Shown in pieces: positions 31,689 to 52,046 of a DNA stretch of 64,000 nt. Made by a program: the position numbers and the translations under genes. The DNA lies in the NCBI RefSeq assembly GCF_006546655.1, contig NZ_VIAQ01000019.1:62001-126000 (forward strand), written 5' to 3'. Each line of letters begins with the position of its first letter. Position 1 is the first letter of the stretch. Source of the DNA: Methanolobus vulcani. GTDB taxonomy: Archaea; Halobacteriota; Methanosarcinia; Methanosarcinales; Methanosarcinaceae. The notes beneath the pieces are model-generated. The model saw nothing but the letters and a program-made list of their open reading frames with translations, did no database searches and had not been told where the DNA came from.

Positions 31689-32624
31689 ATGGATAAGAAA
31701 AGTAGAATTTACATTGCAGGTCACAGAGGTATGGTCGGTTCGGCCATAAAAAGAAAGTTGGAATCAAAAGGCTATCAAAGCATTATATGCCACACCCACA
31801 AAGAACTCGACCTAACAGACCAGCAAGCGGTCAACAACTTCTTCAAAATCGAAAAACCAGACTATGTATTCCTCGCAGCAGCTAAAGTCGGCGGAATTCT
31901 TGCAAACAACACATATCCTGCAGAGTTTATCTATCAGAACCTAATGATAGAAGCAAATGTAGTCCATGCCGCATACACCTATGGTGTCAAAAAACTTCTT
32001 TTCCTTGGTTCTTCCTGCATCTATCCTAAGTTTGCACCTCAGCCTATGAAAGAAGATTACTTACTAACCGGAGAACTGGAATCCACTAATGAAGCATATG
32101 CAATTGCAAAGATTGCAGGTATAAGGTTGTGTAAGCATTATAATCAACAGTATGGAACCAACTTTATTTCGGTGATGCCAACCAATCTCTATGGTCCAAA
32201 TGACAATTTTGACCTTGAAAACTCACACGTGATGCCCGCACTGATCCGTAAATTCCATGAAGCAAAAGTAGAAAATAAACCTGAAATTGTAGTATGGGGA
32301 AGTGGAAAACCTAAACGTGAATTCCTGCATGTGGATGACATGGCTGATGCCTGTGTTCATATGATGGAGAACTATGACTATATGGATATCGGAGAATTCG
32401 TAAATATTGGGTTTGGAAAAGATATTACAATTCAGGAACTGGCTGAGCTTATAGCTGAAATCGTAGGATATGAAGGAAATATCGTTTATGATACTTCAAA
32501 ACCAGATGGAACCCCACAAAAGTTGCTGGATGTAAACAGGCTGGACAGACTTGGATGGAAAGCTAAAATCACACTCCGCTATGGAATTGAACAGGCATAT
32601 GAGTGGTATATAAGTCAGAAGTAG
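31689..32624 (+). CDS. fcl: GDP-L-fucose synthase
   Basis: Bifunctional epimerase/reductase making GDP-L-fucose from the Gmd product with NADPH. Motifs: [52 protein letters not shown], catalytic Tyr/Lys in [12 protein letters not shown], and [12 protein letters not shown]. Length 311 is typical. The ATG follows GAGGATTAGGC. The sequence is visibly less A/T-rich than the preceding genes and resembles gmd and manC, its pathway partners 16-18 kb upstream. Confidence 0.95.
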
Positions 32625-32664
32625 CAAAACGAACAATACCCTAATATGCTCAATAACAAAATAA

Positions 32665-33531
32665 ATGACAAAAAAAACCTTGATATCAGTCATCATCGCA
32701 GTTTATAACGGTGCAAAAACCTTGCAGCGCTGCATCGATAGTGTATCTAATCAGACTTTTAAAAATAAAGAACTTATAATTATTGACGGTGGTTCCACAG
32801 ATGGTACAATTGATATTTTAAAAGCCAACAATGATAAGATCGCTTACTGGATATCTGAACCGGATAATGGAATATATAATGCATGGAACAAAGCACTGGA
32901 ACATGCAAATGGTGAATGGATATACTTTTTGGGTTCTGATGACTATTTGTGGGAAAACAAGGTTTTTGAAGAACTCGAAACATACCTAATCAAAGCAGAA
33001 TCTGAAAGCATACAACTGGTTTATGGACAGGTTGCAAGGGTAAATGAAAATAATGAGATATGCTGCATTGATGGCAGTTCATGGGACCATACATGGAATG
33101 GGATAATGATAGACGGAGTCTGTACTTTCACCCATCAGGGCATGTTCCATCATCGCAATCTCTTTGAAAGCTATGGGATATTCAATGAATCTTTCAAAAT
33201 CGTTGGAGACTATGAATTGCTTATTAGAGCATTTAAGCAAGGAGGATATGCTCTCTTTGTGAACGGATTGATTGTAGCAGGGATGCAAACCGGAGGAATT
33301 ACTGACAACTGTATAAAGTTGGTAAAGGAAACTGCAAGAGCAAGACAGTACCATCAGTTGAGAGTAATTACAATTCCCTGGCTTATATCATATGCTTGGG
33401 CAATATCATATCCATCGTTAAATTATGTACTTGGAAGTAAAAATACAAGATATCTGGTTAACTTTGGAAAGCTTTTCGTAACGGGTATTTCCCATAAGAA
33501 AAATGCTTTTCTGAAACGTAAAAGTAATTAA
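32665..33531 (+). CDS. GT2 family glycosyltransferase (WcaA-like)
   Basis: 288-residue GT2 enzyme with an N-terminal SVIIAVYNGAKTLQRCIDSV, the strand IIDGGSTDGTIDIL, NGIYNAWNKALEHANGEWIY and the acidic motif FLGSDDYLW. FTHQGMFHHRNLF and YELLIRAFKQGG complete the family pattern seen in colanic-acid and S-layer glycan enzymes. It may add fucose or another sugar; specificity is not readable. Placed between fcl and aglB, on the conserved right shoulder of the island. Confidence 0.87.
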   Translation: MTKKTLISVIIAVYNGAKTLQRCIDSVSNQTFKNKELIIIDGGSTDGTIDILKANNDKIAYWISEPDNGIYNAWNKALEHANGEWIYFLGSDDYLWENKVFEELETYLIKAESESIQLVYGQVARVNENNEICCIDGSSWDHTWNGIMIDGVCTFTHQGMFHHRNLFESYGIFNESFKIVGDYELLIRAFKQGGYALFVNGLIVAGMQTGGITDNCIKLVKETARARQYHQLRVITIPWLISYAWAISYPSLNYVLGSKNTRYLVNFGKLFVTGISHKKNAFLKRKSN

Positions 33532-33730
33532 AGAAGATAGAGCACTTGCAATAAATAGTGTATCTGTAATAATAGATATATATTGGATGAAGAGGTAATA
33601 CATTACAAATTTAGGATTTAATTCCCTTTATGAAGTAAATAATAGACCAGCTAACCAATCAACTACAAATTACATTCCAATTCCTCAAAATTGCATGTAT
33701 TCAATATGGTATTTAATGTGAGTGAAGCAT

Positions 33731-36193
33731 ATGACCGGTGAAAATGAAAAGACAAAAATAATTAATATCCTACCTTATTGCACAGGAATTCTCATCCCAT
33801 TCATTATAGCACTATATATCAGAATCAGACCTAGGGCAAGTGTGTTCATATCAGATACCTTTGTGCGTTTTGGTGGGAACGACCCATGGTATCATCTGCG
33901 CAACGTTGAATCTATTGTACATAATTATCCTAATGTTTTGTGGTTCGATGCATATACACAATATCCAAACGGCACAAACCAAGTCTTTGCACCATTGTTC
34001 GACATGGTCCTTTCAACAATAATCTGGATCTTGGGCTTAGGGAACCCAAGTCAGGATCTTATTTACAAAATTTGTGCATACTACCCCGCATTCCTAGGAG
34101 CAGTCGTGATAATTCCTACATATTTTGCTGCAAAATGGTTATTCGACCGCAGGACAGGATTACTTGCAGCATTTCTTATCGCATTAGCACCTGGTCAATT
34201 CCTCTCAAGATCAATAATCGGATTCAATGATCACCATATAGCTGAAACTCTGCTTACGACTTTTGTAGCCATGTTCATGATTAAGTTATTGATGGTTGCT
34301 TATGAAAAACAGATAACCTTTACTGACCTAAAAGAAAGGAATTATGATGGCTTGATGGCTTCATTACCATACATCATATTAGCAGGATTAATATTGGGAG
34401 CTTACTCACTAGCATGGTATGGTGCCGTTTTTTTCAGTTTCATACTTGGTATCTACCTCACAGTGCAACATATAATCGATCACATGCACAAACGTCCTAC
34501 TGAGTATCTGGCAATCAGCGGTGTAATAATCTTTGGTATTGCATTAATGATGGTACTGATGGTACCTAACCTATCTTCCAAAGGACCTTTGATAGAAGGC
34601 CTCTTCACTGGCATAATAGCATTTCCACTTTTCACTCTTATCTCCATCGAATTTAAGAAGCGAAAATTAGAGATTTATTATTATCCCCTCTCAATAGCAT
34701 TACTGGCTATAGCAGTAATTGTACTTGCAAAAGCAATATCACCAAGCACCTATGCGCTCATCACCAAATTAGCAAGTTACTTCATGAACACCGGTGGCAG
34801 TCTTACAATAGCAGAAGCCTCCCCCCTCCTATCATCAGGAGGACAATTCACCCTCCAGCCACTCTGGTACAACTTCGGCACACTTGGGTACATATCATTC
34901 TTTGCACTTGCAATACTAATCTACAAAACATTTACAAAAAAGAATACTCCAGACAAAACATTCCTTTTAGTCTGGACACTGATGATAATCTGGGCTATGC
35001 TTCAACAGAACCGTTTTGCATATTACTACTCTGTAAATGCAGCAATTCTCAGTGCATGGATAGGAGTTGAAATTCTAAATCTTGCCGGCTGGCAAAACAT
35101 AACAGACCGTATCAAATCAAAAACATTCAATGCTAGTAATATTAAAATAATGCACATACTCTCAGCCGTTATCATCATACTGGTCATGATATACCCAAGC
35201 TACAGTCTTGCAATGCAGCAGTCTCAGGGAACCGGTGGCCCGAACGGTTACTGGATAGAAGCAACCTCATGGTTAAGATATAACACCCCAGATCCGGGAC
35301 TTGACTACTATGAGAATTATGAAAAACCAGCAACTGGAGAAACTTATGAGTATCCCGATACTGCATATGGCGTTATGTCCTGGTGGGACTATGGACACTG
35401 GATAGAAGTAATTGGACACCGCATTCCAAATGCGAACCCATTCCAGCAGGGCGTAGGTGGTAGAAGAGAGAGCATTGAAGAAGAAAATGAACCGGGTGCT
35501 TCCACATTCTTCACAGCATCTTCCGAAGAAGAAGCAACTAAAGTCCTGGAAGCAGTTGACCCTGACCCTGATAAAGCAGGGGCACGCTACATAGTCTCTG
35601 ACGTTGAAATGGCAACTGGAAAATTCTATGCTATGACCGCCTGGACACTGGACACTGATGATTATTATGTACAGGTACAAACAGACTCAGGATACATGAC
35701 AGTCCCCGGACAAAGATACTATAACTCAATGGAAGCAAGACTTCACATCTTTGACGGAAACGGACTTAAACAATACCGTATGGTTCATGAATCACCGATG
35801 TCAAGTAGCACACAGGAAGCAGGATATAAGAATGTCTACAATGTGCTCTTTGGAGGAAATCTGCCAGAAGATTACAGCGGATATGTAAAAATCTTCGAAT
35901 ACGTAGAAGGTGCTACAATTACAGGCACAGCCCCTGCTGATGAAACTGTAACCATCGGCAACACCATACTAACCAGCCAGATGAGAACATTTGCGTATTC
36001 ACAAACCACAACTGCAAGACCTGACGGAACTTACTCGTTCACAGTCCCTTATTCTACAACAGGACCCATTGAAGGAGAAACACAGTTCGATACCATGCCA
36101 ACCGGATCTTATGTGATAAGTTATGGAAACACCACACAGCAGGTCAGCGTCAGTGAAACAGACATTTTGAATGGGAATACAATAGAAGTTTAA
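33731..36193 (+). CDS. aglB: oligosaccharyltransferase AglB (STT3)
   Basis: Membrane enzyme that transfers a lipid-linked glycan to Asn in N-X-S/T of secreted proteins such as the S-layer protein and archaellins. About 820 residues: an N-terminal membrane half of about 13 helices with the first acidic motif FVRFGGNDPWYHLRN and the second GFNDHHIAETLL, then a soluble C-terminal domain with the catalytic MSWWDYGHWIEV near residue 552 and a DxxMATGKFYAM stretch. The tail (from about 720) is beta-rich and Thr-rich. ATG 33731 is preferred over GTG 33722 because GTGAGTGAAGC just before it can act as the ribosome site. It closes the glycan island. Confidence 0.93.
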   Translation: MTGENEKTKIINILPYCTGILIPFIIALYIRIRPRASVFISDTFVRFGGNDPWYHLRNVESIVHNYPNVLWFDAYTQYPNGTNQVFAPLFDMVLSTIIWILGLGNPSQDLIYKICAYYPAFLGAVVIIPTYFAAKWLFDRRTGLLAAFLIALAPGQFLSRSIIGFNDHHIAETLLTTFVAMFMIKLLMVAYEKQITFTDLKERNYDGLMASLPYIILAGLILGAYSLAWYGAVFFSFILGIYLTVQHIIDHMHKRPTEYLAISGVIIFGIALMMVLMVPNLSSKGPLIEGLFTGIIAFPLFTLISIEFKKRKLEIYYYPLSIALLAIAVIVLAKAISPSTYALITKLASYFMNTGGSLTIAEASPLLSSGGQFTLQPLWYNFGTLGYISFFALAILIYKTFTKKNTPDKTFLLVWTLMIIWAMLQQNRFAYYYSVNAAILSAWIGVEILNLAGWQNITDRIKSKTFNASNIKIMHILSAVIIILVMIYPSYSLAMQQSQGTGGPNGYWIEATSWLRYNTPDPGLDYYENYEKPATGETYEYPDTAYGVMSWWDYGHWIEVIGHRIPNANPFQQGVGGRRESIEEENEPGASTFFTASSEEEATKVLEAVDPDPDKAGARYIVSDVEMATGKFYAMTAWTLDTDDYYVQVQTDSGYMTVPGQRYYNSMEARLHIFDGNGLKQYRMVHESPMSSSTQEAGYKNVYNVLFGGNLPEDYSGYVKIFEYVEGATITGTAPADETVTIGNTILTSQMRTFAYSQTTTARPDGTYSFTVPYSTTGPIEGETQFDTMPTGSYVISYGNTTQQVSVSETDILNGNTIEV

Positions 36194-38729: not shown

Positions 38730-40385
38730 TCAGGCAATACCCAGTAGTGATGACACTGCTGCCATAGTTACCACAGCACTTGCACCGGATATCCAAACCA
38801 TGATCACAAAATCAATTGTAGCACTGAGCATATGGCCACCATCTACAATTCTAATCAGGATAGCTGACATCAGTGAGTGACCCACCATGATGGCCATGAC
38901 CATGTTTGAGAGTGTGTCTATGTTTCCTACATTGGTGTAGAGAACCATGCCCATGGACATACCTGCCGGCATTTCCACAGATGAGAACATGTCCTGCATG
39001 AGACCCACAACACCAAGGGAAATGTACATGGTAAAACCGATACCACCTGTCAGGCCATACAGTACACCCACAAGACTTCCGGCAGACTGTGACCTTTTTT
39101 TTCTGAGAGTTACTATCCTGTGAAAATTAGTAGCTATAATGTCGCCTATGACCTCAGGCTGACCACCAAGGTTGGTTGCCTGGACAAACATACCTGAAAA
39201 ACGCTGGATAAGGTTGCTACCAGTGTTGGAAGCGAAGTATTCCCAGGAACTGAACTTGTTGATCCTTGTAACAAGCATCTTGTAGAGATTATTCACATCG
39301 GTTGTCAGAGGTCCAAAGTCATGTGCTCTCAAAGCTTTCAGGGCCTCATCAATAACACCACCCCTGGCTCCGGCTGAGCTTCCCAGAGAACGAATGAATG
39401 CAGGGAAATTTTCGTCTTTTCTCCTGATACTCTTCTCAATCTTTCTTGAAACATGTCCTGTGTAGACAAGAGGGGTTAACACCATGGCAACTGCAATGCT
39501 TGTTTCTATTTTACCATAGAGTAACACAGCAATGAGAACAACAATGCATCCTGCAATTGAAACCGGAATTGAACGATAGAGTTTCAATTTATTCTCTGTC
39601 ATATTACTTGACTGGCTCCATGCCGGGTCTTTTGGGATCTTGCTCTTGGTGAACATCACCATTACAATATCGGTTACAAGGAAAATGACAACCACAATAC
39701 CCATGAGTAGTTCCGCATTCATACCGGTAATCACCGGCATGATTACAGCAAAGGATGCCATGAAGATAAGTGACATAACCAGAGATACGAAGAGTTCCTT
39801 GATGATCTCAACAACATAAAGAGCACCATTATACATGGACTCATACTCGTTCATCACAACGTTCTGTTCTGCAAAAAGGAAGGTCTTTACATCTTCTCCA
39901 GACTGGAGAGCATGTGCAAACCTGTCCAGAAAATCCTCAAATATTATAGAAGGAGTTCTTTTGGAGATGAAACGACATGCATCTGCAAGACTTAAGTGCC
40001 ATACAGTCACAAGGTCGTATATTTTCTTTGTTTCGTCTGCAAGCTCCTGATAATCCGCATTTTCCGAAACTATACGTACTATATCAATTCTCGGAGTTTC
40101 TGCTGTTGCAATGGAACCCATCTGAGTGATGTAATAGTGCATATTATTGTCAATTCTGGAAGCTTTTGCAGCCAGAATAGATAGAGGATAAGAGAAGGCA
40201 AAAACAATACAGATAACAGGTATCAGATAAGGGATATACGCGGCAGTTCCAACGAATATCGAAGGGAGTAATGCAAGAAGAAGAATTGAGAATAAAAATC
40301 CAAAAGCTACGATAGGTAAAGCAAACTTCTTGAGATATGCCTTGGGTTCCATCCCAAGGTTCTTGAATGCTTTCTCATAGCTCAC
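38730..40385 (-). CDS. arlJ: archaellum assembly membrane protein ArlJ (FlaJ)
   Basis: Polytopic membrane platform of the archaellum, 551 residues, homologous to TadC/PilC. Two type II secretion F domains are seen: one before about 220 (LADACRFISKRTPSIIFEDF) and one after 310 (FPAFIRSLGSSAGARGGVIDEALKAL, here cited as FPAFIRSLGSSAG). Hydrophobic segments group near 20-70, 185-240, 280-320 and in the last 120 residues. It anchors ArlI, whose gene precedes it by 9 bp. Last gene of the arl operon. Confidence 0.92.
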   Translation of the reverse strand: MSYEKAFKNLGMEPKAYLKKFALPIVAFGFLFSILLLALLPSIFVGTAAYIPYLIPVICIVFAFSYPLSILAAKASRIDNNMHYYITQMGSIATAETPRIDIVRIVSENADYQELADETKKIYDLVTVWHLSLADACRFISKRTPSIIFEDFLDRFAHALQSGEDVKTFLFAEQNVVMNEYESMYNGALYVVEIIKELFVSLVMSLIFMASFAVIMPVITGMNAELLMGIVVVIFLVTDIVMVMFTKSKIPKDPAWSQSSNMTENKLKLYRSIPVSIAGCIVVLIAVLLYGKIETSIAVAMVLTPLVYTGHVSRKIEKSIRRKDENFPAFIRSLGSSAGARGGVIDEALKALRAHDFGPLTTDVNNLYKMLVTRINKFSSWEYFASNTGSNLIQRFSGMFVQATNLGGQPEVIGDIIATNFHRIVTLRKKRSQSAGSLVGVLYGLTGGIGFTMYISLGVVGLMQDMFSSVEMPAGMSMGMVLYTNVGNIDTLSNMVMAIMVGHSLMSAILIRIVDGGHMLSATIDFVIMVWISGASAVVTMAAVSSLLGIA

Positions 40386-40394
40386 AAAATCACC

Positions 40395-42056
40395 TTATAT
40401 CATAAATGGAAGACCGTCAACACCATGCTTATAGAAGTTCACTATAATCTCAAGGACATCATAATAATCTTCTATTCCACGGGACTTCATTTCAGTCAGT
40501 ATCTTTGCTCTCAGGAAAAGATCCTGATATATCATCCTTTTATCCTCATAACCAAGCTTTGTGGCGATCTTGTCCTCAAGGATGTAGCTGTTATTCAGAC
40601 CGCGGAACTTGTGAGTGTCACTATCAGGTTCCCACTGGAATACAGCCCTGGTTGCCACACCACCGATTTCCTCATAGTAACCTTCTATTTCCTCAATTGC
40701 AAGAGCACGCCTGAGGAACTTACCTTTACGATAAACAGCCGAAAGGATCATTGCAATATTCAGGTTGTCAATGAAAGTCACAGGTACATTGATAGGGTCT
40801 GCTGTAAGACGCTGGATCATCTTTGATACCGCAGATGCGTGGAACGTTGCAAGTACAGGGTGACCTGTCTGCATACCCTGGAAAGCTACGTTACCTTCGG
40901 CTCCTCGAATCTCACCTACGATGATGTAGTTTGGTCTTGAACGCAGAGCGGCCTTTAGAAGGGCAAACGTATCTACCCTGGATTCCGGCGGACCTTCCTC
41001 ACGAGTGATCAATTGCTGCCATACGGGCTGTGGTGGCTGAACCTCAGCGGTATCTTCCGCAGAGAATATCTTGGCTTTTGGATTTACAAAAGCAAGGCAT
41101 GCATTTAGCATTGTAGTTTTTCCACTTGCAGTTTCACCACTGAAGAAGATACTCATACCATTCTCAAGGCACATCCACATATACGCTGCCATTTCAGCGC
41201 TCAATGCACCCCAGTTGATAAGCTGGATAATACTTACAGGAACTTCACTGAACTTACGCATGGTAAAACTGCTACCACGCTTACTGACATCTATACTGTA
41301 AATAATATTGATACGTGAACCATCAGGAAGAGCACCATCAGCAATTGGTCTTGCATCACTTACAGGACGACCGATACGCTCACTCATACTACGCAGCCAA
41401 TTATCCAGTCCTTCTTCTGTCCCGAATGTAAGGTCAGTTTTAATTGTATCAAAAATCTTGTGGACAATAAATACGTTATCCACACCTATACTGCTGATAT
41501 CTTCAAGATACGGGTCTCTGATAATTGGTTCAATTGGACCTGAACCGATAATGTCCCTTTCAAGGTGATAGAGGATTTTATTGTATTCACCTTGAGTCAT
41601 GGGTACTTTTTTCTGTACTGGTATGAACTTCTGGAGAATATCGAATTTGCCTCCTCCTTCTTCTTCATCAATACTGCCACCTGATCCTATGTCTATAGAT
41701 CCATTGAATAGCTTTGTGATCAGGTCTTTGAGCTCCGTTTCTGTATTTGGAACAGGTTCAGTTGCAGATTTCTCAAGAATAATGTCCAGAGCTGTTTGAT
41801 ACTTCTTTTTTTCCAGGTCAGTAAGTTCAGGTTCTACACCATAATAATTGATCTCTCCCTGTTCATCACCACCATAAAGGTGTATGAATACAGGATCACC
41901 AACCGGAAGAATAATATTAACTTTTGAGTGGTCAATATCTTTTGAAAGACTTACCATGAAAGTTGGCTCGTCTTCGCCGGTCTCACGCATGAATTTCTTT
42001 ACATACTCACCCAGATGAGGGTTCCTTTGTACTGCTTTCTGAAATTCTGCATCCAC
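40395..42056 (-). CDS. arlI: archaellum motor/assembly ATPase ArlI (FlaI)
   Basis: Hexameric type II/IV secretion ATPase of 553 residues that powers filament assembly and rotation. Walker A is SGETASGKTTML in the C-terminal half, followed by the Asp box region IFSAEDTAEVQPP, Walker B IIVGEIRGAEG and the His box MQTGHPVLATFHASAV. The N-terminal domain (1-190) is the ArlI-specific part. It lies between arlH (19 bp gap) and arlJ (9 bp gap), the universal archaellum order. Confidence 0.95.
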   Translation of the reverse strand: MDAEFQKAVQRNPHLGEYVKKFMRETGEDEPTFMVSLSKDIDHSKVNIILPVGDPVFIHLYGGDEQGEINYYGVEPELTDLEKKKYQTALDIILEKSATEPVPNTETELKDLITKLFNGSIDIGSGGSIDEEEGGGKFDILQKFIPVQKKVPMTQGEYNKILYHLERDIIGSGPIEPIIRDPYLEDISSIGVDNVFIVHKIFDTIKTDLTFGTEEGLDNWLRSMSERIGRPVSDARPIADGALPDGSRINIIYSIDVSKRGSSFTMRKFSEVPVSIIQLINWGALSAEMAAYMWMCLENGMSIFFSGETASGKTTMLNACLAFVNPKAKIFSAEDTAEVQPPQPVWQQLITREEGPPESRVDTFALLKAALRSRPNYIIVGEIRGAEGNVAFQGMQTGHPVLATFHASAVSKMIQRLTADPINVPVTFIDNLNIAMILSAVYRKGKFLRRALAIEEIEGYYEEIGGVATRAVFQWEPDSDTHKFRGLNNSYILEDKIATKLGYEDKRMIYQDLFLRAKILTEMKSRGIEDYYDVLEIIVNFYKHGVDGLPFMI

Positions 42057-42075
42057 ATTACCACTACCTTTAAGA

Positions 42076-42771
42076 TTATGATACTGAAGCGATCTCTACT
42101 ACAAGACCAACCTTTGGCTCTATTCTGAAACCGATCATCTGTCCTACAGGACCCTTGGCACCTGTGAATTTGTTCACTACAATAGTCCTTTTAACCTCAC
42201 TTCCAAGAGGCTTTGATTTGAGAGTAATGTACACATCACAGGAAGAGCGGAACATTGAAGCAATGTCCTCTGTTAGCTGATTTGGTTCGATTGTAAGAAT
42301 AATGACCTTTCCCATACCATTCAATTTTTTAAAGAATGATATCAGGTCAAGGGTTTTCTCAGTGTTTGCACTGTATTTGATAAGCGAGGAAAGAGTATCG
42401 ATTATTACCACATTCTTCTCGAAAAGCTCTTCAGCAGCCATTAATCTTTCAATGAAATCAAAACGGGATTTTGCCGCCTGTACCAGCGGGATTACAGGAA
42501 TGTACAATAACAGACCATTCAAAAGAAATGGAGCTATTGGATAGTCCATTGAATACATCTGGTTGATAAAGCCCTTTGTTGTCAGTTGTGTAGAGACAAG
42601 TGTTACACTGACATCGTTTTCATTCAATCCGAATGAAAAACGCTGGGAAATTGTGCTTTTTCCTCCGCCACTGCCACCTTCAATCACTACCAGTGAACCG
42701 GCAGGAAAGCCTCCTCCCAATTTATCATTCAGATCATCCCGGGGGATTGCAAATTCATTGATCTTTGCCAT
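42076..42771 (-). CDS. arlH: archaellum ATP-binding regulator ArlH (FlaH)
   Basis: KaiC/RecA-like protein of 231 residues that forms a ring with ArlI and regulates assembly or rotation. Walker A is EGGSGGGKSTISQRFSFG near residues 32-45, Walker B NVVIIDTLSSL. Like other ArlH proteins it has a conserved ATP site but lacks a strong catalytic signature, in line with binding rather than rapid turnover. It follows arlG by 13 bp. Confidence 0.93.
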   Translation of the reverse strand: MAKINEFAIPRDDLNDKLGGGFPAGSLVVIEGGSGGGKSTISQRFSFGLNENDVSVTLVSTQLTTKGFINQMYSMDYPIAPFLLNGLLLYIPVIPLVQAAKSRFDFIERLMAAEELFEKNVVIIDTLSSLIKYSANTEKTLDLISFFKKLNGMGKVIILTIEPNQLTEDIASMFRSSCDVYITLKSKPLGSEVKRTIVVNKFTGAKGPVGQMIGFRIEPKVGLVVEIASVS

Positions 42772-42784
42772 TATTTGCCTCTTA

Positions 42785-43291
42785 TTACGTTTTGAAACTC
42801 ATCGCACCGGATTTACCATTGTCAGCTGCAACAAGCACTCTATGATCACCTTCATCCAGTGGTGATGGGGTAGTGGTTACATTCAATTGGAGAATATCAC
42901 CGGGCCTCCATACAACATCACCATCTGTCAATGCCGCATCAACACTTGCCGGTTCCAGAAGGATACCATCCACAAGTACGGTAACATATTCCGGAGCTAG
43001 TTCGGTCTTACCGGTGTTCTTTGCGTAAAATGTGTATTTGCCGGAAACATTGTCATAGGGAATTATCTCAGGATCATTTACGATTGTTATATCTGTCCTC
43101 ATCTGTTCGGACACTATCTTACTGCTTGCACTGGAAGAAGCAACCATGGACTGGACATTGCCGGAGACAAGAACAACTACGCTGATAGCCAGAACCATTG
43201 CGGCTATGAAGAAAATCATGTGCGTTACTGCTGTTTCTGCACCTGTATCCTCCAGTAAGGTCTTTTTTTCTGTTCTTAGCATGCTTTTCAT
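42785..43291 (-). CDS. arlG: archaellum stator-type protein ArlG (FlaG)
   Basis: 168-residue protein with one N-terminal membrane helix (VTHMIFFIAAMVLAISVVVL, residues about 22-41) and an immunoglobulin-like domain outside the membrane (FYAKNTGKTELAPEYVTVLV, PGDILQLNVT). ArlG with ArlF forms the periplasmic stator that binds the S-layer. The helix is preceded by DTGAETAV, typical for the family. It starts at ATG 43291, 75 bp after arlF. Confidence 0.88.
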   Translation of the reverse strand: MKSMLRTEKKTLLEDTGAETAVTHMIFFIAAMVLAISVVVLVSGNVQSMVASSSASSKIVSEQMRTDITIVNDPEIIPYDNVSGKYTFYAKNTGKTELAPEYVTVLVDGILLEPASVDAALTDGDVVWRPGDILQLNVTTTPSPLDEGDHRVLVAADNGKSGAMSFKT

Positions 43292-43366
43292 GTTTTTTGC
43301 CAGCCCGATGCAAATAGAATTAGAGAAGTAATATATAATTAATAGTATATAAGATTGTTATTCAGT

Positions 43367-43798
43367 TCAGACGGTATAAGAACTGTAAGCAGAAACACCA
43401 TTGCGAGTTACAACTTTTACACGATGAGATCCTGTACCGGAAAGGTCAGTGACTGTCATACTTCGTGTCTCTGCAGGTGTCCAGGTAGCTGCAATTTCAC
43501 TATATCCATAAGATTCCAGATTACCATCAACGAGAACATTGAGCTCATCAAAACGAATGGTTTCACTGCCCGTGTTTGAAAGTGTCACTGTTAGATTATA
43601 GGTCCCGGAGTGGTTCTCGGGAACAGCGCTTTGTACTTCAAGATTTGTTTTTAGCTTTGAATTCTGCATTTGATATTGATCTTCAGAAGCATCGCTTACA
43701 ATCTCATTTGAAGTGTTAAGCATGGAATATGAAAATGAGCCAATTACAAGAGCAGTGATGAAAAATATCACTGCCACAACGGAAAGCTCAAATCCCAT
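43367..43798 (-). CDS. arlF: archaellum stator protein ArlF (FlaF)
   Basis: 143 residues with an N-terminal membrane helix (LSVVAVIFFITALVIGSF, residues 5-22) and a beta-sandwich ectodomain (LTVTLSNTGSETIRFDELNV). ArlF binds the S-layer protein and anchors the rotating machine to the cell wall. Its ATG overlaps the end of the upstream arlCDE-like gene by 11 bases, so translation is probably coupled. Confidence 0.87.
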   Translation of the reverse strand: MGFELSVVAVIFFITALVIGSFSYSMLNTSNEIVSDASEDQYQMQNSKLKTNLEVQSAVPENHSGTYNLTVTLSNTGSETIRFDELNVLVDGNLESYGYSEIAATWTPAETRSMTVTDLSGTGSHRVKVVTRNGVSAYSSYTV

Positions 43799-45131
43799 AC
43801 AATTCCTCCAGACCGTGCTTTACCTTTGACATTTCCCTGTCAATGGAACTAAGCATGTTTCTGTCTATCTTGCGTCCGGAGAGTCTTTCAATAAATAGCA
43901 GGGATTTTGTGTGATCCTCTGGCAAAAGCCGCCATGTAGGCTTTTCCACATAATAATCAATTCCACGAGCATATGCCATGATCTCTGACATTACATCCTC
44001 ACTTATCCAGCCAATGTCAACATAATAATCAAGAGCATCCATCAGGTTATTCCTTCCAACCCTTTCCATCAGGAACTCTATCCAGTTAAGCAGGACAACT
44101 ACACTGGTAGGATCGGCTTTGATGAATTCCAGCCTTACAAGTGGTAATGAGGATTTCTTTGCAAGCGAAGTGCTTCCGTCTTCCAATTCAGCATCTTCTG
44201 ATTCTTCATCTTCCTGATCACTTATTGCAGCCTTTGATTTTTCATCACCTTTTGAAGGAACAGAATTAGAGCTACCTGTAGCAACTGGACGACTCTCAAG
44301 ATCATCGAGTCTGGTGGTTATGGCGGATGTAGTTTCTGCAATGTCCACTAAATTCTGATTAAGTGAATCGGTACGTGTGAATAATTCATCTGTTTTTGAG
44401 TTTAGTTGCTCAATACTTTCATGCATCATTACCATGGCATCTGCAAATGCATCCATTTTGGATTCAAAATCCTGCATTCTGGAAGCGGCTTCTTCAGAGA
44501 TACCTGTTGGCATACTTAGTTTCTGAGCAGTAGCATCAAACTCGTTTTTCAAAAGAACAATCATGTCGCCCATTTCAGTAAGGCGGGTCTCTGTTTTTTC
44601 AAATCTCTCGATGGTATCCCTGGAACCAGCACCATCCCCTACAAAAGGATTGACCTGATTGGATACGATCTCATACAGGGATAATAATTCAAGGACACTC
44701 TGGTCGATCTTATCAACCGTTTTTCTAATTTCCTCATTGTCCCTCTGCACCATGTTGAGAGTGGCATCTGCTTTTGATACTTTAGACTCAACATCTTTGA
44801 TTTTTTTGCGATTCTCCTCCAACATCTCATTATCTACAGAAGCAGCTTGAGGAGCGGCTTGTGGGGGCATTCCCGGTGGACCACCAGGAGCTGCTCCCGG
44901 AGGAGCCATACCAAGAGGAAATGCAGAATCGGCAGGTGCACCTGGAGGAAAGCCGGGTGAACCTGGCGCAGGTGGCATGCCGGAAGCCAGATCCGGAACT
45001 GAACCAAGATCAGGTACGCCCTGCATGAAAGGAGGAGCTTCGCTACCAAACGGAGAATCGCCCCCTTTACTCTTCTTCTTTTTGGAAAGAACAGAGGTTA
45101 CTTTTTTGATTTTATCACTAAATCCGGCCAT
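43788..45131 (-). CDS. ArlCDE-like archaellum switch protein with Pro/Gly-rich linker
   Basis: About 447-residue protein combining the archaellum switch-complex parts ArlC/ArlD/ArlE. A short basic N-terminus (MAGFSDKIKKVTSVLSKKKK) leads to a Pro/Gly/Met-rich linker (about 35-105), a long coiled coil with repeated heptads (about 105-285), an acidic hinge, and a C-terminal ArlD/E-type domain (VRLEFIKADPTSVVVLLNWI, then MERVGRNNLMDALDYYVDIG). It couples chemotaxis signals to the motor. I start it at ATG 45131; a frame to TTG 45179 exists, but a TATA box at about 45195-45210 fits the shorter one. First gene of the arl operon. Confidence 0.87.
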   Translation of the reverse strand: MAGFSDKIKKVTSVLSKKKKSKGGDSPFGSEAPPFMQGVPDLGSVPDLASGMPPAPGSPGFPPGAPADSAFPLGMAPPGAAPGGPPGMPPQAAPQAASVDNEMLEENRKKIKDVESKVSKADATLNMVQRDNEEIRKTVDKIDQSVLELLSLYEIVSNQVNPFVGDGAGSRDTIERFEKTETRLTEMGDMIVLLKNEFDATAQKLSMPTGISEEAASRMQDFESKMDAFADAMVMMHESIEQLNSKTDELFTRTDSLNQNLVDIAETTSAITTRLDDLESRPVATGSSNSVPSKGDEKSKAAISDQEDEESEDAELEDGSTSLAKKSSLPLVRLEFIKADPTSVVVLLNWIEFLMERVGRNNLMDALDYYVDIGWISEDVMSEIMAYARGIDYYVEKPTWRLLPEDHTKSLLFIERLSGRKIDRNMLSSIDREMSKVKHGLEELYGI

Positions 45132-45285
45132 AGTTCCACTGGTTTTATTTAATTTGTGAGAGATATATCTATACGTCAAACAATATACCCTTAATAATAT
45201 ATATAAATTATGAATAAAACATGCGTCGAACTTACTGTGAAATCAGATGAGTTTAAATTGTTTACCCGACTTGTAGGAGAAGTCC

Positions 45286-46308
45286 ATGGCACGTAAGAAG
45301 CAATTCAAAACAGAAATGATATCCGACAAGGATGGTATAAGATTTGCAACTCCCGAACCTGTAGCGGAATACAGGGCTAAAAGATTGCAATGTAAAACAA
45401 TCGCAGATATCAGTTGTGGTATTGGCGGTCAGGCCCTCTTTTTTGCCAAATACTGTGATTTCGTCTATGCTATTGAAATTGACCCGAAGAAGATAGCATT
45501 TGCAAAAAAGAATGCCAGGATAATGGGTGTTGATAACATCGAATTTATTGTAGGAGATGCATTATCCCCTGAAGTTATTGGAAAGTTACCTCATCTGGAC
45601 GTTGTTTTTTCAGATCCTGCAAGACCACCTACTGAAAAGGAGAGAAGTATAGATAATCTCAGTCCTTCCATCCCCGAAGTAATGAAAGCTTATGCAGAGA
45701 TTTCATCGAATTTCACATTTGAAGCGCCTCCACAGTTGTCTCCTGAAAAAATACCTTTTGACTGTGAAAGAGAATACATGTCCCTGGAAGGAAAGCTTAA
45801 CCGCCTTAACCTTTATTTTGGAGATTTGAAAAAAGCAGATATTTCTGCTGTTGCACTTCCCGGAAGCAATATCATCAGAAAAACAGATACTGTTGAACCT
45901 GCCATCAAAGTTACGGAAACGTCCCTTTACGCCTATGAGCCTGAAGAATGCGTAACCAAAGCAGGCCTGCTTGAACAGCTTGTGGCAGAGCTTAAAAAAG
46001 AATCAGATGATATTGCCATCTTTGAGATTGATGAGAAAAGAACACTTCTCAGTTCAAAAAATGAGATTAAGAACAGCCTTTTTAAGAATAGATATAAGAA
46101 GCTGCTTGTTACTGGCACTGACTTTTCACAGATCAATTCTTACCTTAAGAAGAACTCATTTGGAAAAGTTATTGTCCGGGCAGCTATTGAGCCTGAAAAG
46201 TACTGGGATGTGCGCAATGAACTGGAAAACGGATTAGATGGCGAAAGAAAGGCACACCTTTTTGTAAAAGAGGGAAAAACAATATTATATGAAGTGCTGG
46301 ATCACTGA
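45286..46308 (+). CDS. class I SAM methyltransferase with THUMP-like C-terminal domain
   Basis: 340-residue protein. The N-terminal half is a Trm5-like class I methyltransferase with IADISCGIGGQALFFAKYC (motif I), AIEIDPKKIAFAKKNARIMG, and VFSDPARPPTEKERS, where DPAR replaces the NPPY of DNA/RNA N-methylases; the C-terminal half, with SALIVK-type strands (KKLLVTGTDFSQINSYL, GKVIVRAAIEPEKYW), fits the THUMP-like domain of this family. Its RNA substrate is unknown. ATG 45286 has a GTAGGAG site. It is transcribed divergently from the arl operon and overlaps the convergent receiver gene by 7 bases at the stops. Confidence 0.82.
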   Translation: MARKKQFKTEMISDKDGIRFATPEPVAEYRAKRLQCKTIADISCGIGGQALFFAKYCDFVYAIEIDPKKIAFAKKNARIMGVDNIEFIVGDALSPEVIGKLPHLDVVFSDPARPPTEKERSIDNLSPSIPEVMKAYAEISSNFTFEAPPQLSPEKIPFDCEREYMSLEGKLNRLNLYFGDLKKADISAVALPGSNIIRKTDTVEPAIKVTETSLYAYEPEECVTKAGLLEQLVAELKKESDDIAIFEIDEKRTLLSSKNEIKNSLFKNRYKKLLVTGTDFSQINSYLKKNSFGKVIVRAAIEPEKYWDVRNELENGLDGERKAHLFVKEGKTILYEVLDH

Positions 46309-46676
46309 AGTTTCATTTCCAGCAATTCTTTTGTTCTCTTGATCAGTTCTTTTCTGCTGAAAGGCTTTGTGATGTAGTCATCTGCCTTGAGTACATGCAG
46401 ACCAAGCATTTTATCAAATTCCTGACTTTTTACCGTAAGCATGGCAACTGGAAGAACTGGCTCTTTTTCTTTGATCTTATGGAAAGTTTCCCAACCATTC
46501 ATATCAGGCATCATGATATCAAGTAAAATTGCATCCGGCCGTTCCTCTTCAATTGATTCAAGACATTCAAATCCACTATTTGCTCCGACGACTTCTATAT
46601 CCTCGGATTCCAGGATCAACTTTATGAGATCTATGGTATCGGGTTCATCATCCACAACCATGATTTTGGGACACAT
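46302..46676 (-). CDS. single-domain response regulator (CheY-like receiver)
   Basis: 124-residue receiver domain without an output part. The acidic pocket is VVDDEPD (residues 7-13), the phosphoacceptor Asp53 lies in AILLDIMMPDMNGW, the Thr/Ser switch in AMLTVKS and the Lys in ITKPFSRKEL. It could pass a phosphoryl signal to a partner such as the archaellum switch or the KaiC-like proteins next to it. No histidine kinase is nearby. It follows a receiver-containing gene on the same strand after 69 bp. Confidence 0.9.
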   Translation of the reverse strand: MCPKIMVVDDEPDTIDLIKLILESEDIEVVGANSGFECLESIEEERPDAILLDIMMPDMNGWETFHKIKEKEPVLPVAMLTVKSQEFDKMLGLHVLKADDYITKPFSRKELIKRTKELLEMKLQ

Positions 46677-46745
46677 TAATGATACATCTCCTAAGACGTT
46701 TTGATTATAAATATATAATAGAAGATTAGTTAAAAGAATATATAA

Positions 46746-47807
46746 TTATTCCTCGTCAACCCAACCAAGACGACGCATTACCATTTTAATTCTTGCTTTG
46801 ACCTCTCTTTTGTCAAATGGTTTGGAAATGTAGTCATCAATTCCAAGTTCCATACCTTTGACCTTATCCTCAATAGCTGTTTTAGCTGAGATCATAATTA
46901 CAGGAATATCGCTTGCAGCCTTGCTCTTTTTAAGATTCTCTACCACTTCATAGCCATCCATATCAGGCATCATGATATCAAGAAGAATAAGATCTGGAAG
47001 CTCTTTAAGTGTGAGATCGATAGCATCCTGACCATTATGAGCCACGAGGAAATCATAGGGTTCACTTATAAGAGATAGCTTGAGAAGCTCTGGAATGTCG
47101 GGTTCATCATCAACAATAAGAATCTTCAGGCGTTCACGCTTGATCTTCTTTTGCATAGGCTCTAATTCAATAGACCCTTCTTCCACCGAGTACCTGTAAT
47201 CAAAATCCTTCATACCAATTTCAGCATGGATCTCACCTACATTGGTGGTATCAATAACAACATCAAAGAATGAAGTGATAAGAACCTCAGTCTCAGAGGG
47301 CAGAATGTTCCTTGAAAGCATGGAAACGATACTACCATCGTTCTCTGCTACTTTCTTTTCTATGAACTGGACAAAATTCTCCACTACTTGCATTGTGTCA
47401 CTTGCAAGCACATTCATATTGTCTATAATTAGCACTGAGTTTTGATGATCCTGAAAGATATTCGAGATATGGGATGCCATCTTTGTATAATCTGCAACTG
47501 AGCTGCAGTAGAATGTATCATCATGGTGCTCCTTACCTGGTGCATCAATATCAATGAAAAACATTTTTCCACCATAAGTGATGTCAAATCCAAAATCCTC
47601 AAATCTTGACAATATTTTATCCCTGGAAGAGTTAAGGCATAGCCACACCACGGCTCTTTCAGATTCTTCTTTCAGTATGTCCGATACAAAAAAATAGACA
47701 AGCCTCTCAATAAAACTATCCACAGGAGCAAGGAATAATGTGTTTTTCCGGGACAGCTCTGTTCTGAGGGTTGAAAGGATTTCCTGCGTTTGAGGATTCA
47801 TTGCCAA
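46746..47807 (-). CDS. degenerate KaiC-like domain fused to a C-terminal receiver
   Basis: 353 residues in two parts. The first 225 resemble a RecA/KaiC-like fold, with a strand/helix opening NTLFLAPVDSFIERLVYFFV where the P-loop should be; the Walker A Gly-Lys-Thr is missing, while a Walker B-like strand is kept (NSVLIIDNMNVLA). Residues 230-353 form a receiver with VDDEPDI, LILLDIMMPDMDGYE as the Asp pocket, ISAKT and DDYISKPFDK. The fusion inverts the usual order, with the sensor- or ATPase-like part at the N-terminus. It lies between a KaiC/GvpD-like ATPase gene (upstream) and a single receiver gene (downstream). Confidence 0.85.
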   Translation of the reverse strand: MAMNPQTQEILSTLRTELSRKNTLFLAPVDSFIERLVYFFVSDILKEESERAVVWLCLNSSRDKILSRFEDFGFDITYGGKMFFIDIDAPGKEHHDDTFYCSSVADYTKMASHISNIFQDHQNSVLIIDNMNVLASDTMQVVENFVQFIEKKVAENDGSIVSMLSRNILPSETEVLITSFFDVVIDTTNVGEIHAEIGMKDFDYRYSVEEGSIELEPMQKKIKRERLKILIVDDEPDIPELLKLSLISEPYDFLVAHNGQDAIDLTLKELPDLILLDIMMPDMDGYEVVENLKKSKAASDIPVIMISAKTAIEDKVKGMELGIDDYISKPFDKREVKARIKMVMRRLGWVDEE

Positions 47808-47894
47808 GTACCTTTTAATTTTGTTTAGTAAATATTATTAGTATTATTTTCTTATTAATGTTTGGGAAGAAAATGCTTACAGCATGTAAATTAC

Positions 47895-49235
47895 TCATTT
47901 CATAGGAATGAGGTTAACCTGCGGGTAACCTGACACAAACTCCATCTGAACAGCAAAAACACCGGTTTTTGGTACCACACCATACATAACAAGGGTCTTG
48001 TCAACATTTTCAAACTTCCAGTGAGTTGTGGCCATGTGCGCTACAGACTCGGTAATTCTCTGGCCATATTTTGTGACAGCAAGAACAACATTATCGGTTG
48101 TTTTTGTAATAGATGCCATCTGCCCTATTATAGAACCAATGTTTTCCCATCCGTAATTGTATTCCATACTGTCAAGACCAATATAATCTAAAACAGGTGA
48201 ACCGCATTGGCGCAGAATTTCATTCTTGGCCTTGTGGAAAATATCCATGTCTTTGTAGACATTACCTGAGAAAGGTTCAATGTATGCAGGAATTCTACCT
48301 TTAATGTCTCTTATCTCAAATCCCACAAACTGACCTTGGAAGTGATTATCTCCTGTAAATGGAGAGATCATACGCTTTTCGGTCTCAACACTGGTACCTT
48401 CTGTGGGCATGCTGAGAAGACCGCGACCAAGTTTGAGGTGATTTATGAATGTCGGTAACAATAAACTGTAGAAAGAGTCGCCTACACCACTTGTGATCTC
48501 AAAAAGATTGAAACTTCCTTTTTGATACCCTCCGGCAAGTATCTCGTCAAAATCATGCATACCGGTAGAGATCTTGCTTTCCTCCGGATCAGAAAGAGGA
48601 CGTGGAACCTGTGTTTGTTCAGGATATGAAACAGTGAACGGTTCAAAGCTCCTGAAATGGCCACCATCAAGAGTAAACGGATATCTTGATTGTGCAAGCT
48701 CAACACCGCGTATCTTGAGCAGGTTTATTTTTCTTATGTCGCGTCCGGAAATCTCTGATATCTCAAGGAACACCACACCATCCACAAGATAATCAAGGGA
48801 TGTGATATCGGACTGCTCTGTGATCATTATAAGATCGGCATTGACCTTGCGTGAAAAATCGAATAGCAAACGTTCAAGCTCAAATTTGTTACTTTCCCAA
48901 TCAGAGGAACGTGTTGTCGCAATGCTCAGGGAATCAATTGAATCTACAACAATAATTGGTTTAGTGTCACTGGATTCCCATATGACTTTTATGCGGGATG
49001 CCAGCATACGCAGAAAATCTTCATTATTATTAAAATCGCCTTCGATCCAGGGATAATTTCCATAATCTGAGGCTTTATCAATGCGCGGTGAAATATAAAC
49101 ACAATTGCCTTCGGGGCATATCTCATCAAGTATTCCAAAGACAAAAGTGGTTTTCCCAGTACCAGGCTGCCCCTTTACAAGAAGGGACTTTCCATACTGG
49201 GATGAAAAGAACTCTTTAACCTCACCAGGTATCAT
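47895..49235 (-). CDS. KaiC/GvpD-like tandem RecA ATPase
   Basis: 446-residue protein with two RecA-like modules. Module one begins at once with LLVKGQPGTGKTTFVFGILD (intact Walker A, residues 18-37) and has Walker B PIIVVDSIDSLS. Module two starts near 225 with ISTGMHDFDEILAGGYQKGS, the KaiC signature, but its P-loop reads TSGVGDSFYSLLL, so Lys and Thr are lost. GvpD, KaiC and ArlH relatives act in regulation; this one probably binds ATP in module one and signals to the receiver proteins encoded after it. ATG 49235. Confidence 0.82.
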   Translation of the reverse strand: MIPGEVKEFFSSQYGKSLLVKGQPGTGKTTFVFGILDEICPEGNCVYISPRIDKASDYGNYPWIEGDFNNNEDFLRMLASRIKVIWESSDTKPIIVVDSIDSLSIATTRSSDWESNKFELERLLFDFSRKVNADLIMITEQSDITSLDYLVDGVVFLEISEISGRDIRKINLLKIRGVELAQSRYPFTLDGGHFRSFEPFTVSYPEQTQVPRPLSDPEESKISTGMHDFDEILAGGYQKGSFNLFEITSGVGDSFYSLLLPTFINHLKLGRGLLSMPTEGTSVETEKRMISPFTGDNHFQGQFVGFEIRDIKGRIPAYIEPFSGNVYKDMDIFHKAKNEILRQCGSPVLDYIGLDSMEYNYGWENIGSIIGQMASITKTTDNVVLAVTKYGQRITESVAHMATTHWKFENVDKTLVMYGVVPKTGVFAVQMEFVSGYPQVNLIPMK

Positions 49236-49271: not shown

Positions 49272-52046
49272 CTAATTATTTAATTGATCTCCAAGAAGGC
49301 TCTGTCCTGCAGCAAGTGCTTCATCGATCTTACTGGCATCAACACCACCACCGCGGGCCATGGCAGGCTTTCCGCCGCCGCCACCGCCAACTACCTGTGA
49401 CATAGCCCGGACAATCTTTCCGGCATCTGCTCCGGCCTTAAGTGCGTCTTCACCTGCAGCACCGACTATTTTAACACCGCCTGCATCACTTGCCAGAAGT
49501 ACAACCATGTCTTCACTGGTTGTCAGTTCACCGGCAATCTTGACAAGCTCATCGATGTCTGCGTTAGGTATGCATTTTGCCACAAGGCGCATATCTGCGA
49601 TATTGACAGCCTCGTTGGCCATCTGGAGCACATGAACGTGCGCAAGGTCATCCTTGAGTCTCTGATTCTCTTTCTTGAATTCCTTCCATTCATTGAAGAA
49701 ACGGTCAATTGTGGATGGAAGATGTTCTGGCCTGACACGAAGTGCATCTGCTGCCTGGCTAAGATATGATTCCATTTCCTGTGTTGCCCTGACAGCTGCA
49801 AGACCTGCTGCATACTCAATACGCTCAACACCATCCTGAACACGCTCAGTCTTAAGCATCTTGATAGGACCAACAAGTCCTGTGCTGGTACAGTGAGTAC
49901 CTGCACATGCCTCGATGTCATCAGCAACTTTCAGAACACGAATAGTGCTTCCAGGAGGAACGCCTCCCTGATACAGTCCAAAACCATATTTCTTCTCAGC
50001 ATCGATCCTGTCCATCCATTCTGCAATAACACGCTGGTTCTCCATGACAGTACGGTTGGCTATCAACTCGATCTGGTTGAGCTCTTCCAGAGAGATGCGT
50101 TTGTAGTGTGAAATGTCAAGACGTGCGCGGTCCACGGATTTCTGGGCACCGGCCTGCCATACATGACCACCAAGTACCTTACGTGCGGCATCATTGACAA
50201 TATGAGTTGCAGTGTGGTGACATGCATGAGCCATACGGCGTTCTTCGTCCACATGTCCCTGTACCATGTCACCCTTCTTAATATGGAACTCATCTTCAGA
50301 TTCTTCGATAATGTGAACGACAACACCATCTACACCCTGAACGTCAATGACATTGTGCAATACATCCTCAATGACCATTGTACCATAGTCTGCAGGCTGC
50401 CCACCACCTTCCGGATAGAATAATGTGCTGTCAAGTACTATATGATTATCAAATACGTCAAGTATGACTGCCTCAAAGTTCATTCTTGTAGGCTCATCAT
50501 AGAACAGTTTCTTGGTCTTTGGAAGCTTGGCAACTCTTTCTGCGTATGGGAAGACTTTTTCCTCTTTTGCTTCAGCCTTGCTGTGTCCTTCGGCAACAAG
50601 TGAATAGAAATTGTCAGGAAGATCTACAGCCACACCAACCTCAGATGCTGCTTCTTTTGAGATCTCAGGTGGAATTCCGTGACTGTCATACATCTCGATA
50701 ATACTTTCAAGAGGCATGCTCTGCCCGGATTCCTTGTAGTGTTTGGCAGACTTCTTGATCATGCGCTTTCCACGTTCAAGGGTTTCACCGAACTTGCGCT
50801 CCTCGTGTTCAAGGATGTCCTGTATAACATCAAACTTCTCCCCAAACTCAGGATATTCCGGCAGGTTATTGATATGCATCCTTACAATATCAGACAATGG
50901 AACTGTAATGCCCATGTCCTTCATCATCCTGAGTGTCCTGCGCAGTACAAGCCTTGCAAGGTATCCGGCCTTAACATTGGAAGGAATGATACCATCGGCA
51001 AGCATGAATGTCAGACAACGTGTGTGGTCAGTGATAGCGTATACAGTCTCAACTGGTTCCATGATGGATGAAAGTTTCTCCACGGTTGTGCCGATGCTGG
51101 AAGCGACCTGTTTTCTCAGCTCAAAGAGATTGGCCTTTTCGCTAATGTCCATAAGACCTGCAAGACGGGCATTCTGAGCAAGGATATTAGCATATTCTGA
51201 GTTATCAAGTTCATGGCTAACACCAGCCAGATCCATGAGTTCGTTGACAATTTCTGGGAAAACTGCGTCATATATTGTAGGAGAACCTTTGGATGCCCAT
51301 ACAAACCTTTCAAGACCGTAACCAGTGTCCACAATGTAGTTGTCCATCTTGCGGTAGTTATCGCCTTTTATGGAGATATCACCGTCTTTTGACTGCTTGA
51401 GATCCATGAACACAAGGGTCGCAACCTCAAGACCGCCGATAAGTGCCTCTACACAAGGACCGGCATTTCCACCGCCAGCCCATGGTTCCTCTTTGTAGGT
51501 CACTGCCAGTGGATCAACACCAAGGGAATTGAAAAGTTCATCACATAATTCTACTGTGTGGTCTTTCCAGTATATTTCTTCGCCTTTTTTATTGAAGGCG
51601 TGGTGAGCCATCATTTCAAATGTGGTCAGATGGCGGCCACTTCTACCAACCGCATCAAGGTCAGAAAGACGGATGCATGGCTGTGAAATGGTCAAAGGAT
51701 TTGCTGGTGGTGGTACCTGCCCGGAAGTAACAAATGGCTGGAAATCCGCAATGGAAGCAATTGTCAGATAGATATCATCTCTCCACCTTGCGATAACAGG
51801 ATATCTTTCAAGCCTTGTGTGGCCTTTCTCTTCAAAGAAGTTCAAGTAATACTCACGCATTTCCGCAAGGTCGAACTTTTTCTTAAATACGGGATTACCG
51901 ATAAATGAGTATGGATCGCATGGCGCATCTCCACACGTGACCCTTTCAAGATCACGGGTCCAGAAATGTTTTCCACATTTAGAGCACTGTTTGCGAACGA
52001 ATCCATTCTCTAAAAAATAATCAAGCTGATATTCGTCTTCAAGCAT
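49272..52046 (-). CDS. alaS: alanyl-tRNA synthetase, archaeal type
   Basis: Class II synthetase of 924 residues that charges tRNA-Ala. The archaeal N-terminal zinc ribbon is seen (CSKCGKHFWT ... CGDAPC), followed by the catalytic domain (VIARWRDDIYLTIASIADFQ as motif 2 region), a tRNA-recognition part, the editing domain with zinc ligands CHHTATHIVNDAARKVLG and AGTHCTSTG, and a C-terminal DHHA1 domain ending with QVVGGGGGGKPAMARGGG. It starts at ATG 52046 and has no close partner. Confidence 0.95.
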   Translation of the reverse strand: MLEDEYQLDYFLENGFVRKQCSKCGKHFWTRDLERVTCGDAPCDPYSFIGNPVFKKKFDLAEMREYYLNFFEEKGHTRLERYPVIARWRDDIYLTIASIADFQPFVTSGQVPPPANPLTISQPCIRLSDLDAVGRSGRHLTTFEMMAHHAFNKKGEEIYWKDHTVELCDELFNSLGVDPLAVTYKEEPWAGGGNAGPCVEALIGGLEVATLVFMDLKQSKDGDISIKGDNYRKMDNYIVDTGYGLERFVWASKGSPTIYDAVFPEIVNELMDLAGVSHELDNSEYANILAQNARLAGLMDISEKANLFELRKQVASSIGTTVEKLSSIMEPVETVYAITDHTRCLTFMLADGIIPSNVKAGYLARLVLRRTLRMMKDMGITVPLSDIVRMHINNLPEYPEFGEKFDVIQDILEHEERKFGETLERGKRMIKKSAKHYKESGQSMPLESIIEMYDSHGIPPEISKEAASEVGVAVDLPDNFYSLVAEGHSKAEAKEEKVFPYAERVAKLPKTKKLFYDEPTRMNFEAVILDVFDNHIVLDSTLFYPEGGGQPADYGTMVIEDVLHNVIDVQGVDGVVVHIIEESEDEFHIKKGDMVQGHVDEERRMAHACHHTATHIVNDAARKVLGGHVWQAGAQKSVDRARLDISHYKRISLEELNQIELIANRTVMENQRVIAEWMDRIDAEKKYGFGLYQGGVPPGSTIRVLKVADDIEACAGTHCTSTGLVGPIKMLKTERVQDGVERIEYAAGLAAVRATQEMESYLSQAADALRVRPEHLPSTIDRFFNEWKEFKKENQRLKDDLAHVHVLQMANEAVNIADMRLVAKCIPNADIDELVKIAGELTTSEDMVVLLASDAGGVKIVGAAGEDALKAGADAGKIVRAMSQVVGGGGGGKPAMARGGGVDASKIDEALAAGQSLLGDQLNN

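Follow-up and report, generated by a model that had tools for sequence, protein, structure and literature searches.

In a 64,000-nucleotide stretch of Methanolobus vulcani DNA (hereafter the window; contig NZ_VIAQ01000019.1, positions 62,001 to 126,000 of the forward strand, from a genome of 2.92 Mb), three minus-strand genes follow one another at positions 46302-49235. They encode a GvpD/KaiC-like ATPase (KaiC2), a KaiC-like domain without a P-loop fused to a receiver (iKaiC-REC) and a lone receiver (REC). We find that this trio is not one ancient unit: iKaiC-REC is widespread in the family, and KaiC2 is confined to Methanolobus and a pair of sister genera. The dependence seems to run one way, with KaiC2 relying on the archaellum and the archaellum able to do without KaiC2, and iKaiC-REC seems independent.

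Orthologs were collected from 112 genomes of the family, with genera coded as g1 (Methanolobus), g2 and g14 (the two sister genera), g7 (Methanococcoides-like), g10 (Methanohalophilus-like), g13 (Methanosarcina-like) and so on. An iKaiC-REC ortholog was present in 65 of these genomes and absent from g13. Wherever the contig reached far enough upstream, the gene was found downstream of alaS, the alanyl-tRNA synthetase gene (49272-52046, minus strand, in the window), which is thus its constant upstream neighbour; the exception is a fragmentary contig from g14, L124, on which iKaiC-REC borders pilin-like genes. The full trio was observed only in g1, g2 and g14, and the lone REC additionally in g12. 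In g3, g7, g9 and g10, iKaiC-REC stands behind alaS without KaiC2 and without the lone REC. Conservation of the trio therefore holds in part: the order KaiC2, iKaiC-REC, REC is identical in all Methanolobus-type loci covering it, far beyond chance, but the complete set does not extend past three genera. The nearest named locus, that of M. bombayensis, shows 92% identity across the 353-residue iKaiC-REC protein.

The archaellum operon arlCDE-F-G-H-I-J (38730-45179, minus strand) adjoins the locus in g1, g2, g9, g11, g12 and g14, and does not in g7 or g10. In the window, the distance from the ArlCDE start (45179) to the REC stop is 1.1 kb, in agreement with the original prediction. KaiC2 was found in all 27 g1 genomes and ArlH in 26 of them, the exception being a genome 70% complete. 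Among the g2 and g14 genomes, ArlH and KaiC2 occur together in six, and three others (G001, G106 and G108) lack ArlH, ArlI and KaiC2. On the iKaiC-REC tree these three correspond to two independent losses, one in G001 and one in the sisters G106 and G108 (97/90). G001 shows two gaps: one where the arl operon would lie, between REC and an isocitrate/isopropylmalate-dehydrogenase-like gene, and one where KaiC2 would lie, between alaS and a kinase gene. REC, iKaiC-REC, a binding-protein gene and the kinase gene (the latter two described below) are retained between the two gaps. Since this retained block separates the gaps, two deletions were required, not one. In G106, arl and KaiC2 are missing on either side of iKaiC-REC, which again calls for two deletions, and the lone REC is missing too. 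The suspected link to the archaellum is thus upheld for KaiC2, lost together with arl, and not for iKaiC-REC, which is anchored to alaS and survives archaellum loss.

The KaiC2 gene (47895-49235, minus strand) encodes a tandem RecA protein of 446 residues. The protein exceeds the cut-offs of three Pfam families: PF07088 GvpD_P-loop (72.3 bits, cut-off 24), PF06745 KaiC (46.9 bits, cut-off 26.6) and PF20440 GvpD_bR2 (34.7 bits, cut-off 27.9). In an alignment of 10 orthologs from three genera, the Walker A motif GxPGTGKTT and the Walker B-type aspartate D98 are invariant. The second P-loop position reads EITSGVGDSF, without GK[ST]; it is degenerate in every aligned ortholog and is itself conserved. 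As judged from these profile matches, KaiC2 is a KaiC/RecA-like ATPase, GvpD-like instead of plain KaiC. A circadian KaiC was rejected (TIGR02655, 23 bits against a cut-off of 546; second P-loop degenerate). KaiC2 was also rejected as ArlH, with 19 bits on the equivalog model PRK06067 (cut-off 194) and no NF052589 match listed; the true ArlH of the window reaches 274 bits on PRK06067.

GvpD is the repressor of haloarchaeal gas vesicle genes, and its Walker motif is required for GvpE breakdown (PMC4390858). This breakdown also depends on arginine-rich regions of GvpD; the comparison made with KaiC2 is one of profiles. The P-loop and bR2-like domains of KaiC2 match both GvpD families above cut-off, whereas its second RecA-like domain is degenerate and its gene lies beside alaS and arl. 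A search of the genome, made without a positive control, gave no match to GvpA, and no gvp gene was seen in the trio neighbourhood, GvpE not having been searched for. Relatives of KaiC2 were also noted in families f7 (about 460 residues) and f4 (about 480 residues), and no locus examined had one beside arl or alaS. In f7, most of the loci examined have a small winged-helix gene ahead of the KaiC2 relative. A GvpD-like ATPase gene directly 3′ of a small winged-helix gene, in a regulator-pair-like arrangement, was seen at L160:7753-9513 and in L162, L163, L164, L166, L167 and L173.

The iKaiC-REC gene (46746-47807, minus strand; 353 residues) specifies a P-loop-less KaiC-like domain (about residues 1-220) ahead of a complete receiver (229-341). 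A conserved ATG two codons inside the open reading frame, at 47801, is the likelier true start. The receiver matches PF00072 at about 1e-29 and retains the DD, D, T/S and K residues, with D277 as the predicted phospho-site. The N-terminal domain yields only a KaiC match below threshold (20.4 against 26.6 bits), and no P-loop was found in any of 12 aligned orthologs. Because its AlphaFold2 model (predicted local distance difference test score, pLDDT, 82.6) matches KaiC crystal structures (3k0c, E 4e-11), the domain is RecA-like as modelled. An iKaiC profile gave no significant match to PDB sequences, and therefore the fold assignment rests on the model.

The lone REC gene (46302-46676, minus strand) encodes 124 residues of an OmpR/PhoB-type receiver, which matches PF00072 at about 1e-29 and also retains the DD, D, T/S and K residues. 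Its best matches are OmpR-type receivers. The idea that it is a recent copy of the fused receiver was rejected, the two being 40-47% identical, with other receivers of the genome at least as close. The original prediction of three minus-strand genes in a row, with one intact and one degenerate P-loop in the first protein, a RecA-like domain devoid of P-loop before the receiver of the second, and a single receiver, was accurate; its view of the first as a KaiC-type ATPase stands on PF06745, with the reservation that the protein is closer to GvpD. That the assembly would be unusual in kind was not supported. The iKaiC-REC architecture is not new, because an earlier study lists it from six genera of the Methanosarcinaceae (Galperin et al. 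2018, PMC5847659). In the part of that article available to us, architecture and phyletic range are exactly alike to those of the 353-residue protein, with Q12U26 as the listed example; the same part does not mention the alaS anchor, a promoter element, KaiC2 or REC as partners, archaellum co-loss or a linked kinase.

A B recognition element (BRE)/TATA-like element, CCCAAACATTAATA (47853-47866, minus strand), lies 5′ of iKaiC-REC. This sequence or a close variant was found about 50-76 bases 5′ of the gene in 25 of the 28 loci examined, and it occurs once in the window, where 0.01 occurrences are expected. From its position and conservation, it is probably the own promoter of iKaiC-REC. Since iKaiC-REC carries this conserved promoter-like element, a single operon for the trio is unlikely, and the three genes are likely distributed over at least two transcription units. 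In Methanolobus-type genomes, KaiC2 begins within a few tens of bases 3′ of alaS and is probably co-transcribed with it.

No histidine kinase was found in the window. The genome contains about 70 HATPase_c matches and about 34 receivers, so that local absence means little by itself. Moreover, a HisKA-HATPase kinase is encoded at the locus in 10 genomes of three genera. In g14 and g2, genes for a Phosphonate-bd (PhnD-like) protein and a Cache-HAMP-PAS-HisKA-HATPase kinase are found between KaiC2 and iKaiC-REC; in g11, a shorter kinase gene, also divergent, lies between alaS and iKaiC-REC. Wherever one contig holds both, the kinase gene is divergent from iKaiC-REC. The locus kinases form one clade (100/98) with the kinases of a PhnD-kinase pair of g1, present in 14 of 27 g1 genomes. 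In the M. vulcani genome this pair, a PhnD-like binding protein and a sensor kinase, is encoded at G000:C10:43392-46136 (L135:7393-10137), the kinase gene itself at 43392-45200 (L135:7393-9201), beside PhoU and PstS-like genes, which makes it a phosphate-linked kinase. The kinase of this clade is a candidate cognate kinase of iKaiC-REC on the strength of linkage and phylogeny. About every second Methanolobus-type genome lacks the pair, so that other kinases must serve those genomes. Thus, the trio lacks a kinase in M. vulcani as foreseen, but with a kinase at the locus of relatives and at least two likely transcription units, a single kinase-free unit is not supported.

Inactive KaiC domains also occur by themselves. 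Stand-alone iKaiC proteins without a receiver were found in families f5 and f4, and as paralogs in g14. At five loci (L178:6180-7639, L181:418-1861, L190:6392-7841, L191:6065-7514 and L192:4058-5501), the gene for a single-domain KaiC with an intact P-loop directly precedes the iKaiC gene, and the two overlap in four of the five. This favours a pairing of ATPase and pseudo-ATPase, and supports, at the level of gene order, the view that an active KaiC is generally paired with an inactive one. Separately, a set made of a MinD/ParA-like ATPase, a small coiled-coil-like protein and a stand-alone iKaiC recurs at L182:5717-7757, L184:5401-7368, L185:6886-8855, L187:6935-8884 and L189:7235-9164.

We tentatively favour, while regarding it as quite possibly wrong, the reading that assigns KaiC2 to accessory regulation of the archaellum, as a GvpD/KaiC-type ATPase gated by receiver phosphorylation via the pseudo-ATPase domain of iKaiC-REC. 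Histidine kinases encoded elsewhere would phosphorylate both receivers. The inactivated KaiC domain of iKaiC-REC would serve as a docking module or pseudo-subunit presenting the phosphorylation state to KaiC2, which, with an ATP-binding domain 1 and a pseudo-domain 2, would respond in an ATP-dependent manner. KaiC2 would then set archaellum assembly or expression, its target being possibly ArlH/ArlI or else a transcription factor, as GvpE is for GvpD. iKaiC-REC may have an older role of its own, outliving KaiC2 and the archaellum. The more specific version, where phosphorylated iKaiC-REC inserts into or caps a KaiC2 assembly and so turns a two-component signal into an ATP-powered choice about building the archaellum or degrading an archaellum activator, is in our opinion unlikely.

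Known systems offer partial parallels to KaiC2 as an archaellum regulator. ArlH is a KaiC-like component of the archaellum motor (PMC8978795), that is, a KaiC-type ATPase acting in the archaellum and encoded at the same locus as the trio. It is however a single-domain protein with a separate gene here (42076-42771), and KaiC2 scores far under the FlaH/ArlH cut-offs. CirA, a KaiC-like protein outside the motor, affects motility in Haloferax volcanii (PMC13286277), as is proposed for KaiC2; the two are compared here by description, and no receiver link is described for CirA in the part of that source at hand. More generally, an association of KaiC ATPases with loci for archaella and type IV pili has been reported (Makarova et al. 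2016, PMC4858521); the portion consulted does not describe the trio itself.

Several observations weigh against the regulator reading. KaiC2 and iKaiC-REC belong to different likely transcription units. Dependence of iKaiC-REC on the archaellum is rejected, since the gene persists where both ArlH and ArlI are absent, in five genomes of g10 and one of g7; the genomes with iKaiC-REC and without ArlH/ArlI include one assembled as a single contig. Most archaellum-bearing relatives (g7, g9, g12 and Methanosarcina) have no KaiC2, and in g11, which branches within the KaiC2-bearing part of the tree, both KaiC2 and the lone REC are absent while arl is retained at the locus. The co-loss of KaiC2 and arl is suggestive of coupling and not proof of it, because it comprises two events and some of the assemblies are incomplete (G108 60%, G001 76%). 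Finally, hhalign found no similarity between iKaiC and KaiC2, and the structure prediction of KaiC2, made with a shallow alignment, had a pLDDT of 37 and was not used.

The main alternative is that of two unrelated adjacent units, an archaellum-linked alaS-KaiC2 unit and a separate two-component output made of iKaiC-REC and REC (responding for instance to nutrient or phosphate status), whose adjacency would reflect the alaS insertion site only. We regard this as a real contender, though a somewhat doubtful one. The promoter-like element of iKaiC-REC, the alaS-iKaiC-REC arrangement free of KaiC2 and REC in four genera, and the proximity of the g1 kinase relative to PhoU/PstS and the PhnD-like protein all speak for it; the fixed trio order in Methanolobus-type loci and the recurrence of active KaiC-iKaiC pairs in other families argue the other way. 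It is improbable that the three genes form a regulator serving housekeeping or translation together with alaS, or with valS in Methanococcoides-like genomes, and that the archaellum link is a coincidence. Indeed, alaS is a constant neighbour and valS is the next gene after iKaiC-REC in g3, g7 and one examined g10 genome, but KaiC2 tracks arl and not alaS, which is always present, and Pfam searches revealed no tRNA-related domain in the three proteins. A role of the receivers as CheY, giving the adjoining archaellum its chemotaxis output, is very improbable: the arl operon is close by and chemotaxis input docks at ArlCDE via CheF (PMC8978795), but a che cluster on another contig has its own CheY, CheB and CheA, and the lone REC, 31% identical to that CheY, scores 66.9 bits on CheY_Halo as compared to 125.6 for it.

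Around the arl operon, further features were recorded. A class I methyltransferase gene (45286-46308, plus strand), convergent with the trio, separates it from arl. At the methyltransferase-arl junction of g14 and g2, there is a gene for a multi-CxxCH, haem-binding-like protein (L110:12295-13245, L094:2840-3895 and L114:6135-7172). At L108:738-4235, ArlI has 1165 residues with an in-frame insertion of about 610 residues near residue 397, beginning near a Cys, a candidate intein. In the window, sugar-nucleotide and glycosyltransferase genes with the AglB oligosaccharyltransferase (31689-36193) are located about 3 kb or less from the end of the arl operon.

Archaeal receivers are mostly devoid of DNA-binding outputs. 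KaiC-like ATPases have been proposed as signalling hubs, little of which has been tested. The present locus is a genetically addressable case, with an archaellum-tracking ATPase, two receivers and a candidate cognate kinase. If the proposed regulation of the archaellum by KaiC2 is true, a GvpD-type protein would gain a role outside gas vesicles. If the more specific version with phosphorylated iKaiC-REC acting on a KaiC2 assembly also holds, it would represent an archaeal means of coupling receivers to KaiC-type machines.

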